Below, one piece after another: positions 32,823-57,131 of a stretch of 64,000 bases of DNA. A model generated the notes under the pieces. That model searched no databases and was not told the origin of the DNA. It saw nothing but the letters and a program-made list of their open reading frames with translations. The position numbers and the translations under genes were made by a program. How positions within the stretch are numbered: position 1 is the first letter of the stretch; the number at the start of each line of letters is the position of its first letter. Origin of the DNA: Oxynema aestuarii AP17 (GTDB lineage: Bacteria; Cyanobacteriota; Cyanobacteriia; Cyanobacteriales; Laspinemataceae); contig NZ_CP051167.1 in NCBI RefSeq assembly GCF_012295525.1, forward strand, positions 1-64,000. The letters are read 5' to 3'.

Positions 32823-33387
32823 TTTTAATGATTTTTAATCCTTAACAATCTATTCCAATCTATTTCGAGAAAACCTGATAGTATTATACCTGAGTATTTT
32901 CAGGGTTCCGGTTTAAGCCGGATGCCCAAGAAAAGTACCAAAAAAATCAAAAGATTTACAGGGTTGCTCTGACAACAGTCTATATCTCTGGATAGATTAC
33001 AACTGGAAGCGGGGACGACTAGGCTGTTGCCAAGGTTCCACGTCGATTCAGTATTCTTAACACGAAAGCTGTCGATCTCCCGCGATCGGGGAATAGCTGT
33101 CCAGAACGTTTATCTTGAAGTCAGCACCCCGCTTTAAAGAGACGGGGCTTCGTGCCTCTCCTTTCGTAGGGGCGTTTCGCGAAACGCCCCTACCCAGCCT
33201 AGGCGAGGCGCTATGACGCCGTGCACTTTAGGCGGCTCCGGCTAACAGGAGCGAGCGAAAACTGCACCTCTTTTCGCTCCCCCCCCCCACGAGGGGACGG
33301 CGGTTAAAACCGCCCGTATCGTTTTTCCTCCCTGCGCTAAAGCGACAGGGTTTCCAAACAAGAGCGAAGATTTTCCGTGAGGATGTT
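32823..33387. other. Repeat-rich intergenic region
   Basis: 565 bases between divergent genes, with no coding frame. The left part holds a short CCGG-TTTAA-CCGG hairpin near 32908 and AT-rich sequence likely to contain both promoters. The right part holds the dispersed repeat at 33119-33193 and a run of about ten C residues near 33280. Confidence 0.55.
33119..33193 (-). repeat. Dispersed 75-bp repeat, IS right-end-like
   Basis: Begins GTCAGCACCCCGC, contains a CCCCG/CGGGG hairpin with GGGGCTTC, and ends in a perfect 28-base palindrome at 33166-33193 (half-site GTAGGGGCGTTTCG). The same arrangement recurs in opposite orientation at 45686-45763. The hairpin followed by a TGCTGAC-like end resembles the right ends of IS200/IS605 elements, without any transposase gene nearby. 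Confidence 0.7.
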
Positions 33388-34107: not shown

Positions 34108-35625
34108 CTAAGAACCGGGTTGGGGCCAGGGAATGTAAGCATCGGCAGCCAAAGCGCGGGCGACGGCGGCGGCCCCGTAACGGTTGAGGTGACTGGGATC
34201 GGCGAAATAGTCGTTTCGCATCAAACGGTTTTGGGTCGAGAGGTCGCGCCAGAGAAAGGCGCGTTGACTGGCTTGACGCATGTACTGGCGGAACTGAACC
34301 TCGCGCCATTCCCGGGTGGGGTCGAGATAGTCCCAGGTCACGGGAAGATTGACGATCGTCATCGGGATTCGACGCGATCGCGCGAATTGGGTGACAGCTT
34401 TCAACGCCGCATCTTGAGATCCGCCGAGATAAAAACCCGCATAGTCGCCGTCGTAAGCGCCGGGAACCCGAGGAAAATTGCGATAGTAGCGGGTCGGGTC
34501 GAAGCGGGTGGCAACACTGAGAAAGCCGTTGGCGTCGATCGCCCGTTCCACGGGAATCGCCCGCGCCAGGGTCGTGACCGCGACCGGATCGCGAAATTCG
34601 ACGAATTGGGCTTGAGGAACTGACGCCAGTTTGACCGGGGCGATCGCGCCGTCGTCTGCTTTCAACGAGTCTCCTTTAAAAGTTGCGGACCGTTCGAGAT
34701 CCTCAGACAGCGCCGTAGCGAGGCGATCGCCCGCCACCGCGTCGCCGAGACTGGGGCGCACCCCAGAGACGAGCAATTGATAGCCCGGAGACGCGACAAT
34801 CTCGTTATAGGTGCGATCGAGCCGACCGCTATTAAAGGCGCGGACTCCATCGGCCCAGAGAATCATCTTCGGGAGGCGATCGGGGCCGAGCAGTTTTTGT
34901 AATTTAAAATTAACCACCTGGGCCGTCGCGCCATTAATACTGAAATTAAAAATCTTCAACCCCGGTTTTCCTCGCGCCGCGAGAGCTTGTTGTAACGCTT
35001 GCGGATCGACCCCCTGCAAGGCGCGGGAACTGCCGACAATGAGGACGTCGGGGGGACCGATCGCCGCCGAATAAGACAAATACAGTTCGAGTTGGGTGTC
35101 GAGGACCGTCGAACCAAACGTGGGATAGTACAGGGAAGAACTGCGCGCCGTCTGTTGTTGGGCGTAAGCCAGATAGCGCATGTACTCTTGCACCTTTTTC
35201 TGAGCAAAAGCGCGCTTGGGACTTTCCGGCGGAACCGACTGCATCCAGTAAATCGCCTGCAACCAGGCTTTCGCCACTTCGTCCCATTGGGCCGCCGAAC
35301 TGGCGGTTTGAGCTAAATTCGCCGCCCGAGTCGCCGCACTGACCGCCTCCCCAAACGGATCGGCGCTGTTGGGAAAACCGACATTTTGGGCGAGTTGAAA
35401 CAACGACGGCGTAGACGCGGCAGCATTGAAGCCTTCCGACGGCGAACACCCGGTGCAAAGGGCGATCGCCGCGATCGCCGCCACCCGCTCGAACCAACGT
35501 AACCCTTTAGGCTTGACAGGCTCGCCGCCGTGGAAGGGCGGCGATTCCCCAACCTCACGATTGGGGTTCCTACTTCCTTGTCTTCGGAGTTGTTCGCAGT
35601 TGCTTTTCGGAACAATGTCTTTCAA
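34108..35625 (-). CDS. SGNH/DUF1574-like lipoprotein with helical N-terminal module
   Basis: 505 codons from ATG 35625; the native start is uncertain. Residues 48-60 (VAAIAAIALCTGC, after the basic KPKGLRWFER) look like a lipoprotein signal peptide with lipobox Cys60. Residues 1-37 are read from an IS right-end-like hairpin pair, so the gene start seems rebuilt on mobile DNA; GTG at 35484 is the only later start. A helical module lies at 90-161. The catalytic-like domain has VLIVGSSRALQGVDP (SGNH block I Ser) and DPSHLNRYGA (Asp/His block), with VKFKLQKL-type middle blocks, as in cyanobacterial DUF1574-like proteins. It is probably exported and may act on acyl groups; the substrate is unknown. 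Confidence 0.7.
   Translation of the reverse strand: MKDIVPKSNCEQLRRQGSRNPNREVGESPPFHGGEPVKPKGLRWFERVAAIAAIALCTGCSPSEGFNAAASTPSLFQLAQNVGFPNSADPFGEAVSAATRAANLAQTASSAAQWDEVAKAWLQAIYWMQSVPPESPKRAFAQKKVQEYMRYLAYAQQQTARSSSLYYPTFGSTVLDTQLELYLSYSAAIGPPDVLIVGSSRALQGVDPQALQQALAARGKPGLKIFNFSINGATAQVVNFKLQKLLGPDRLPKMILWADGVRAFNSGRLDRTYNEIVASPGYQLLVSGVRPSLGDAVAGDRLATALSEDLERSATFKGDSLKADDGAIAPVKLASVPQAQFVEFRDPVAVTTLARAIPVERAIDANGFLSVATRFDPTRYYRNFPRVPGAYDGDYAGFYLGGSQDAALKAVTQFARSRRIPMTIVNLPVTWDYLDPTREWREVQFRQYMRQASQRAFLWRDLSTQNRLMRNDYFADPSHLNRYGAAAVARALAADAYIPWPQPGS
35514..35600 (-). mobile_element. Orphan IS200/IS605 right-end-like relic
   Basis: Read on the minus strand, a hairpin with CCCCAA/TTGGGG arms (35547-35566) is followed by CGCCGCC/GGCGGCG arms (35523-35543) and then GAGCCTGTCAAG. 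This hairpin-hairpin-GTCAA layout matches the right end of the tnpB element near 56.07-56.2 kb. No tnpB frame remains. The relic forms the first codons of the SGNH-like gene. Confidence 0.55.
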
Positions 35626-35851
35626 GTCTTACACTCACTCCACAGGCTGTAACGGTGTGTCCCACCACCCAAAAGATTGGATTCGGTCGGCATGTTGGCT
35701 GAAGTCCATCTTAACAAAGCCCAAGGGCCTGTCCCGAGCGAAACCGAAGGGGGACGGGGATTTCAATTCCGAAATTTTCGATCGCGCCCGATCCCGACCG
35801 GGTCGCCTCGGACAGGGGCACGAACGACCTGCAATCGCAGTTGAGATCGCC

Positions 35852-36835
35852 TCAGCGATCGGATTTAATGCGATCGATCTCATTTTGCAGGCGTTCGATT
35901 TCTTGCCGCAATTGCTCGACTCGTTCGCCACGGGGCGATCGCCCTTCGGAAGGCGTCGCCTCCACGTCCACGGACCCTCGGGACCCTTCCCGGCGGTAGT
36001 TCCCGGCGCGAATTTGGGCGTATTCGTTGGAATTAGCCCAATCGCGCAAGTAGGTAATCCGTTCGACCGTAAACGGATGGGTCATAAACACCCCTTGGGA
36101 AATATTGTTATAGAGGAAAAATTTATAAACCTGATTGAGTCCGTCCTCGTCGAGATGTTGGTAGCGTTCCGACTGACGCACCAACTCGTCGAGAGAGCAT
36201 TCGTGGGCGTAGCGGGTCGAACCGCCTGCCATGCGCATCATCGTGTGCATCACCGGATTTAAGTCATCGACCACTAACAACGCCGCGCGATCGGCAGACA
36301 GTTCGGCTTTACGCAACCATTCGTAAAACGCCAAGACCAAACTGGTACTGACAATGCGGCTCATTCCCATCGTCAGGTCGGCGAGGAAAAAGGTAGCGCT
36401 AATCGCCCAAGTGGCCATTTGCATTAAGGTGGTGTGACCGCATTTAATATGGCCGAGTTCGTGGGCGATGGTGGCGCGCAGTTGGTCTTCTTCGAGTAAA
36501 TCGAGCAACCCGGTATTTAAAACCATATAGGGATAATCCTGACCCAAAGCGTAAGCGTTGGCGAGGGGAGTTTGGGAAATAAATAAATTCGGTTCCGGGT
36601 AAATGTCGAGGTCGCGCACGCATTCGCGAAAAATGCGATAAATACTCGAATATTGGCGCGGTCCGACTTGAATGCTATTGCCCATCAAAAAGACGTATTG
36701 CGGGCGTTCGACTAAAAATTCGATAAATTTACGGGCGACCAGATCGAATCCGGGAATACTACGCAAACTTTGCTCGGCTTCGCGATCGAGGGGATGGCGA
36801 AAGGCTTCGCTGGAAATTCCGGTATAAGTAGGCAT
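35852..36835 (-). CDS. M48-family zinc metalloprotease
   Basis: 327 residues. The zinc site HELGH is at 125-129, with the third ligand Glu178 in RKAELSADRAALL, the pattern of M48 (HtpX/Ste24-like) peptidases. The hydrophobic segment 137-155 after the HExxH helix may touch or cross the membrane. The C-terminal tail is a charged coiled coil (EQLRQEIERLQNEIDRIKSD). Such enzymes degrade misfolded membrane proteins. A gene with a helical module follows on each side, which could reflect functional association, but there is no shared operon. Confidence 0.9.
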   Translation of the reverse strand: MPTYTGISSEAFRHPLDREAEQSLRSIPGFDLVARKFIEFLVERPQYVFLMGNSIQVGPRQYSSIYRIFRECVRDLDIYPEPNLFISQTPLANAYALGQDYPYMVLNTGLLDLLEEDQLRATIAHELGHIKCGHTTLMQMATWAISATFFLADLTMGMSRIVSTSLVLAFYEWLRKAELSADRAALLVVDDLNPVMHTMMRMAGGSTRYAHECSLDELVRQSERYQHLDEDGLNQVYKFFLYNNISQGVFMTHPFTVERITYLRDWANSNEYAQIRAGNYRREGSRGSVDVEATPSEGRSPRGERVEQLRQEIERLQNEIDRIKSDR

Positions 36836-56069: not shown

Positions 56070-57131
56070 TGACACTCCCTTACCTAAAGGTGAAGGGATT
56101 CTTCTGTTGTTCAACCTTCGACGATTCGACTTGCTCAGATAGGATTACTCCAGCCACAGTAGCGGTCAAATCTCCAGAAGCGTTCGGGTTTACAACCCAA
56201 GTTCCGCAATGCCCTTACGTAGTCAAGGCTCTTTCAGAATATTGATTGCAGCATTCCAACCCCTATCCATTTCACATCCACAAGAGCAAACGTGGGTGCG
56301 CGTGGATAGGGGTTTTTGCACTTTTGTAGCGCAACTGGAGCATTGTTGGGACGTCAAAGCAGGGTCAACAGCAATTGTTACCTTGCCAAGCTTCTGCCCG
56401 AAATACTCCAACCCCTTTCTGGATCGATCCCAAGGAGCATCATTAATCGACTTGGCCAGACAGTAGTTTCTAACTAAACTCTTAACCTTCAAATTTTCAT
56501 AGGCGACCAAATCGTTAGATTGGATTACGCAACGCGCCAGTCTCTTGGCGTGTTCTTGACGTTGGCTACTTATTTTGAAGTGTGTCCGTCCAAGGCAGTT
56601 AATCGCTTTGTTTCGATTCGAGCAGCCTTTCTGTTCGCGAGAAACGCGACGTTGATTTAAGTTCAACCGTTGCTCTCTTTCACGGCAAAAACGAGCATTA
56701 GGTTTGCTGTGACCGTTAGAGTCTGTATACAACTCTTTCAGTGTTCTATCTAAACCAATTGCTTTTCCTGTCCGTTGAGAATTAAGTTTGACCTCAATAT
56801 CAATACAAAACTTTTTACCAGGAATCCCTTTTTTACAATTCTCGGAAAATCGAGCGATCGCCGCCCATGCACGTTCGGCAGCAGATTGCCTATCTTGAGA
56901 GTTTAACTTTTGAGCGAAAGGATATTCTTGAGCGAATACCCGACAATGTTTGTTGAGTTTGTACTTATTAACCCCTTTGTTGTCCATCCAGTAACGCAAG
57001 CATTTATTCCGAACAAACTGTGTTGTCCGTATGGCCTCGTCAATCGCTTGGCATTGCCAAGGTTTTCCTCGAATTTTAAACTCTAAAACGTGCATGGTGT
57101 TCTAGGTATTATGCTGTATATTATAGCATAA
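56070..57131 (-). mobile_element. IS200/IS605-type element with deleted tnpB
   Basis: Left-end hairpin at 57109-57131 (ten-base stem TTATGCTGTA/TATAGCATAA with one G-U pair) lies just upstream of tnpB. Downstream of tnpB (56070-56222) is a right-end/omega-RNA-like segment with hairpin CCCTT/AAGGG (56077-56097) next to GGGAGTGTCAAA on the minus strand. There is no tnpA. The tnpB has lost an internal block. Confidence 0.7.
56223..57095 (-). pseudogene. tnpB: Internally deleted tnpB
   Basis: 290 codons, in frame throughout, against about 400 for the family. The sequence jumps from GIPGKK (residue 95) to FCIDIEVKLNSQ (96), so about 60 residues are missing before the RuvC core. Motif residues remain: Asp116 (AIGLD), Glu200 (VAYENL), Asp277 (MDRGWNAAINIL). 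Zinc-ribbon cysteines 252, 255, 270 and 272/274 are present. Several normally conserved positions are altered (for example GLDRTLKELY). It probably cannot cut DNA, though a DNA- or RNA-binding remnant cannot be excluded. Confidence 0.75.

Follow-up and report, generated by a model that had tools for sequence, protein, structure and literature searches.

A PATE-like IS200/IS605-type element that probably splits the start codon of a lipoprotein gene in the cyanobacterium Oxynema aestuarii

PATEs in Haloquadratum and PATE-like elements in Halanaerobium are transposase-less elements with near-terminal palindromes of the IS605 type and a short targeting sequence on the 5' side (PMC3119063). A PATE-like element of Halanaerobium is reported to retain a left-end piece, the final 58 nt of tnpB and an entire right end (PMC7290912). 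Here we describe an element from the cyanobacterium Oxynema aestuarii AP17 that, like the PATEs, is transposase-less, has near-terminal palindromes at least at its right end and probably has a short targeting sequence on the 5' side, and that shows the same layout as the Halanaerobium element. In contrast to the PATEs it is cyanobacterial, very probably lies inside a start codon and is entered by the open reading frame (ORF) of its host gene. There are also likenesses to IS608 and ISDra2 (PMC5934647): the right end terminates in TCAA behind a hairpin that has GAAT in front of it, corresponding to the right cleavage and guide sequences of IS608, and the insertion probably lies 3' of a short target, as it does for both of those elements. 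Unlike IS608 and ISDra2, the Oxynema element is without tnpA and carries just the tail of tnpB, and the target of its family is TYAT and not TTAC or TTGAT. A further likeness is found in Borrelia, where transposase-free IS605 stem-loops are attached to lipoprotein genes (Delihas 2009, PMC2775950). Those stem-loops lie at the 3' ends of genes and were followed among homologs, whereas the present element affects a single gene, at its start, in a single genome. No PATE splitting a start codon was found among the PMC titles and beginnings of abstracts listed, a search that mostly leaves subscription papers outside. The kind of element is known; its landing site within an ATG is unusual.

The stretch of DNA that was analysed, referred to as the window, comprises 64,000 nt of the Oxynema genome, which consists of one 6.36-Mb contig. 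The gene and all parts of the element discussed below are located on the minus strand. The ORF call in the window runs from a TTG start at 35625 to 34108 and gives 505 aa. The gene body proper, from the second codon onwards (35511-34108), is intact and encodes an SGNH-like lipoprotein which is weakly DUF1574-like, as PF07611 scored 23.3 bits and the Pfam gathering cut-off is 29.1. Relatives of the gene are present in 44 of the 59 genomes searched, and the nine named relatives include Okeania, Microcoleus and Anabaena. The upstream neighbour, an M48 peptidase (36835-35852; Pfam Peptidase_M48), served as a synteny marker and lies within the upstream flank analysed at 12 of the 29 relatives' loci.

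An initial annotation of this DNA had assigned the first 37 codons of the ORF to the right end of an IS200/IS605-type element, with the signal peptide directly behind it. Relatives that possess the same 37 residues and no hairpins would speak against this; they were sought and not found, and at 29 of 29 relatives' loci the ORF matched from residue 34 or later only. The 37-residue leader, searched in 388 genomes, had no match in any of the 13 genomes of the same family, and the right end, for which the two best candidates per genome were scored, had none in these 13 genomes either. The gene start itself was compared as well. All seven relatives with the closest synteny start with TTCATGCCTAGA, without the leader, and their proteins begin MPRFQ(F/W)FL(K/R)FIPA...; the M48 gene lies upstream in all seven and an OB-like gene downstream in six. 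Extending the comparison to the 12 relatives with M48 upstream, we observed TTCATGCCTAGA in seven cases, TTTATGTCT in three and TTTATGCTA in one, the start of L058 being ambiguous.

In the window the right end is followed by GCCTAAAGGG and the left end is preceded by GCGAT. Joined to each other, the flanks give GCGATGCCTAAA, which reads GCG ATG CCT AAA GGG and contains no target-site duplication. The A and T of this ATG are located at 35782-35781 and the G at 35512, as placed from the joined flanks and the seven syntenic relatives. The ORF of the joined flanks has 468 codons and no internal stop. Its N-terminus is MPKGLRWFERVAAIAAIALCTGC, compared to MPRFQFFLKFIPAVSLLALVGGC in the relatives, with 22 residues ahead of the lipobox Cys in both, and the spacer to the M48 stop codon is 69 nt, compared to 61-149 nt in the seven closest syntenic relatives. 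As the relatives and the joined flanks both give an ATG at the junction, codons 1-37 of the ORF are element sequence, read in another frame than that of tnpB, and the signal peptide indeed follows directly after the right end. The empty site is that of other genera at ∼60% protein identity; judging from it, the insertion of the element removed the gene's own start codon, and an uninserted strain of the same species would start ATGCCTAAA. For annotation this means that the first 37 residues of the predicted lipoprotein are transposon sequence and should be treated with caution.

A DNA-level search of 291 genomes from the order with the right-end region gave matches in 76. Many of these matches end at position 178 or 179 of the query, which corresponds to window position 35513, or to 35512 if the flank base agrees. 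Because the homology stops at 35513 across many copies from other genomes, the element ends with CTGTCAA and G 35512 is host DNA; the right end is thus where the initial annotation had seen it, but the G with which it was made to terminate belongs to the gene. The aligned set of 24 copies predicts two hairpins with 17 pairs, 6 of which changed on both sides, and together with the matches in other genomes this covariation confirms that the first 37 codons belong to a right end. Hairpin 1 (35566-35547) has 8 pairs and a GTGA loop, hairpin 2 (35544-35522) has 8 pairs with GAAT just before it, and both appear in the predicted fold of the window and in the consensus fold. A double change from A-U to C-G in hairpin 1 was found in the window copy alone. 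The last four bases, the cleavage-site-like TCAA (35516-35513), are invariant across the 24 copies. Model R1 scored 87 bits at 35592-35513, the window itself being among its 24 training rows, and across the genome it matched ten times with E at or below 0.001, window included. Folded as DNA the right end reached z = −2.2, with 5 of 200 shuffles as good. A preference for G as the first base after the right end was considered and dropped: 11 of 29 copies, window included, have it, which is no strong bias.

The relic had further been regarded as an orphan right end from which tnpB was gone, and this has to be corrected. A left end is present from 35780 (35780-35715, inner limit approximate; placed by 25-mer score and alignments). 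It begins CGAAAATTTCGGAATTGAAATCCCCG and is an enlarged-loop variant that also occurs elsewhere in the same genome. For the consensus left-end 25-mer the best place on both strands of the 64 kb was 35780-35755 with a score of 17, and the next independent place scored 9. Alignments to the same-genome left ends of L158, L160 and L044 gave scores of 45-56, compared to shuffle maxima of 30-37. An HMM built from the first 48 nt of 17 left ends did not report the left end of the window, and its fold is no better than that of shuffles (z 0.15). Between the two ends lies the remnant of a tnpB 3' end (VGHTVTACGVSVRLERHCSEKQLRTTPKTRK*; 35690-35570, upper limit approximate), out of frame with the gene. 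Over 75 bp, its segment 35678-35604 is 89% identical to two tnpB 3' ends located elsewhere in the genome, both of which are followed by the same kind of hairpins. The tail is the only TnpB coding content, and no transposase or TnpB is encoded in the 268 bp. With the left end starting at 35780, the relic is a whole short element of the IS200/IS605 type (35780-35513, 268 bp), complete and PATE-like, both ends of which match family copies.

Comparable elements were encountered in other genomes and in Oxynema itself. Copies L127 and L131 are short, have the same order of left end, tnpB tail and right end, and align with the window through the left end too. For copies L151-L154 candidate left ends lie just 355-387 nt ahead of the right end, and four other short copies in the Oxynema genome measure 191, 191, 324 and 417 bp. 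The right end is also homologous to tnpB-bearing elements, at 85% to copy L126 and 84% to copy L128, the latter an element of ∼1.3 kb with a 396-aa TnpB. The short element probably derives from tnpB-only elements by internal deletion. We also considered whether the resemblance arose by chance in an ordinary gene whose 5' end is rich in hairpins. In favour of this, the 216-nt stretch with the right end, folded as RNA, is no better than shuffles (z −0.71). The homology of 85% over 166 bp (E 3.5e-47) to an element in the genome of another family, refutes the idea and leaves chance similarity a negligible probability. We are highly confident, taking identity and split together, that 35780-35513 is a PATE-like IS200/IS605 element that splits the ATG of the gene.

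The tetramer ahead of the left end was TYAT (TCAT or TTAT) in 20 of the 21 family copies outside the window with a left end found, a count for which the string searched already contained AT in the case of most copies and TCAT in that of L160. In the window the left flank is CGAT and not TYAT, and the same is true for copy L044. Among the 12 relatives, the uninserted start is TCATG in 7 and TTATG in 4, with L058 again the ambiguous case. A Y1 transposase (TnpA) acting in trans may have inserted the element 3' of a TYAT-like target that ended in the AT of the ATG; Y1 transposase matches number five in the genome. ISDra2 is reported to insert at TTGAT|G ∼90% of the time (PMC5934647), so that a junction of the form AT|G is nothing unusual in elements of this kind. 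Of the right-end positions invariant in the 23 other copies, 2 of 30 are changed in the window. A leave-one-out count gave 3 of 31 for each of L144 and L044, which makes the value of the window unexceptional. One of the two changes falls within a compensatory pair, and any dating of the insertion from this count is a crude estimate. The CGAT flank together with the two changed positions indicates that the ends may be immobile now.

What starts translation today is less certain than the insertion itself. Owing to the position at which the element landed, the frame of the gene continues into the right end and is open back to the TTG at 35625-35623, which is now the sole in-frame start codon upstream; several copies of the family likewise keep this frame open as far as a TTG. 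The suggestion of the initial annotation that the relic supplies the start is correct in that the present ORF begins in the right end, but the original ATG was also broken. Ribosomes would most likely start at TTG 35625 and thereby add 37 residues before the old signal peptide, a reading that we rank first and hold tentatively. An element-supplied start would give peptides of KDIVPKSNCEQLRR.... The GGAG ahead of TTG 35625 is 12 nt away and there is no well-spaced Shine-Dalgarno; a promoter-like site was sought in 35400-35950 and none was found. Within the element, positions 35739-35719 resemble a terminator (one such site found, 0.9 expected by chance).

In the family the tail reads ATGTCAA, and its ATG, 7 nt before the right-end border, is present in 23 of 23 other rows of alignment A3, which omits L133, L134, L136, L137, L146, L148-L150, L023 and the own-genome copies found later; the window has CTG. 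Copies L136, L158, L161 and L162, all outside A3, are without the tail ATG too. At the site in the window the tail ATG of the family would be out of frame with the lipoprotein gene, and the change from ATG to CTG, a single change, hints at relief from a rival start. The idea that selection kept the leader open found no support: among 29 copies, counting the window, 8 have the leader frame open over 110 nt or more ahead of the right-end border (4 of the 33 rows were skipped for lack of a TGTCAA in range), and openness is thus a property of the right end. The case illustrates how an element whose target ends in AT can abolish a start codon and at the same time, through its own end, keep the frame open and offer a substitute start, and such an insertion would be a simple route to new N-termini.

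The second-ranked reading, which we regard as possible and give less weight than a start at the TTG, is that the insertion silenced the gene. The locus would then hold a start-less allele, i.e. a young pseudogene, silent or barely expressed. No standard start codon is left at the old position, and the TTG is the one described above without a well-spaced Shine-Dalgarno. The allele might be revertible, since IS200/IS605 elements leave precisely, with their flanks rejoined, and the ATG would thereby be restored; the flanks do join into a perfect ATG, and for IS608 and ISDra2 the donor flanks are reported to be resealed upon excision (PMC5934647, PMC8612924). The CGAT left flank and the 2 of 30 changed right-end positions argue against reversion, and the 467 intact downstream codons argue against silencing as such. 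These codons show no acceleration either: the distances of the lipoprotein to five outgroup relatives are 0.416-0.443 (413 columns), which is not above the means of 0.451-0.461 for seven uninserted relatives. The M48 neighbour is slightly faster in the Oxynema genome (0.346-0.374 compared to 0.307-0.371). In neutral simulations with 3-5% substitution, an ORF of such length stayed stop-free in 23-9% of the runs (substitutions only), so the intact body argues only against an old pseudogene.

A third reading places the start at GTG 35484-35482, the first in-frame standard start downstream of the element, or at a near-cognate codon close to where gene and element meet, so that the element alters only the 5' UTR. 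The GTG is in frame, but a start there gives 12 residues ahead of the lipobox Cys, with the hydrophobic stretch preceded by no positive charge, while the ATG of the empty site gives 22 residues and a charge of +2. With so short and uncharged an N-terminus most of the signal peptide would be missing and export would probably fail, and we consider this start unlikely. Still more doubtful is a reversible start-codon switch, in which excision by a Y1 transposase in trans recreates the ATG and the normal signal peptide, and the inserted state corresponds to an N-terminally extended lipoprotein or to none. If it existed, start codons would repeatedly be hit or restored by IS200/IS605 elements with targets ending in AT. 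Such switching could be tested directly, provided that excision still works.

It had also been proposed that the relic provides a guide-like RNA reading into the gene. Under this explanation the element would make an omega RNA (reRNA) with the start of the lipoprotein gene as its guide, to be used by a TnpB in trans. The scaffold and the double hairpin are kept with compensatory changes, and the genome contains 120 TnpB-domain matches, many of them in short or broken frames. The compensatory changes may nevertheless be older than the insertion, and the guide matches its own junction only: the 16 nt after the right end have no second occurrence in the genome at up to two mismatches. A search of Rfam returned two matches, both far below the gathering score. 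The initial annotation had asked for a tnpB elsewhere that uses this right end; the two closest same-genome right ends do follow tnpB sequence, but broken pieces only. Beyond the homology of the scaffold we thus found no support for a guide RNA, which we judge very improbable, and such a function is not needed to explain the arrangement of gene and element.

The leader search across the 388 genomes had matches in 69, and among the matches listed four lie in frames of at least 200 aa. These are the window, a 554-aa frame at G318:C191 with the leader at the contig edge, which we take to be an S-adenosylmethionine synthetase, a 455-aa frame at G152:C6 and a 228-aa frame in G104; recurrent fusion of the leader to genes was considered on the basis of these listed matches and rejected. 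At genome position 2377164 (L156/L044) a right end with ATGTCAA opens a 303-codon frame into a conserved gene. This gene has a normal ATG in 11 of 11 relatives read (MLNTTE-, MFNATE- and MFFNATE-like), and Oxynema keeps AMLNATE. Since the gene's own ATG is kept, the element there sits in the 5' leader, and the retained ATG, with the 11 of 11 relatives, rules out L156 as a second gene that starts in a right end.

Several minor observations concern other elements. The window contains an element of the same superfamily at 57168-56238 on the minus strand; its left end occupies 57168-57129 (E 7e-5), and positions 56238-56432 match the TnpB domain. A second decayed element at 33357-33115 on the minus strand was considered because of a weak left-end match (E 0.021) and a weak R1 match (E 0.2) and was rejected, as its alignments to five short elements never scored above those of shuffles. 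Two 191-bp transposase-less elements, L163 and L164 (right ends at 2486127 and 2359532), have a common conserved core and possibly form a separate mobile non-coding family. Finally, a palindrome GTAGGGG..TTCGCGAA..CCCCTAC is inserted into the tnpB tails of L044 and L045, and a similar palindrome is found in an intergenic region of the window at about 33166-33193.
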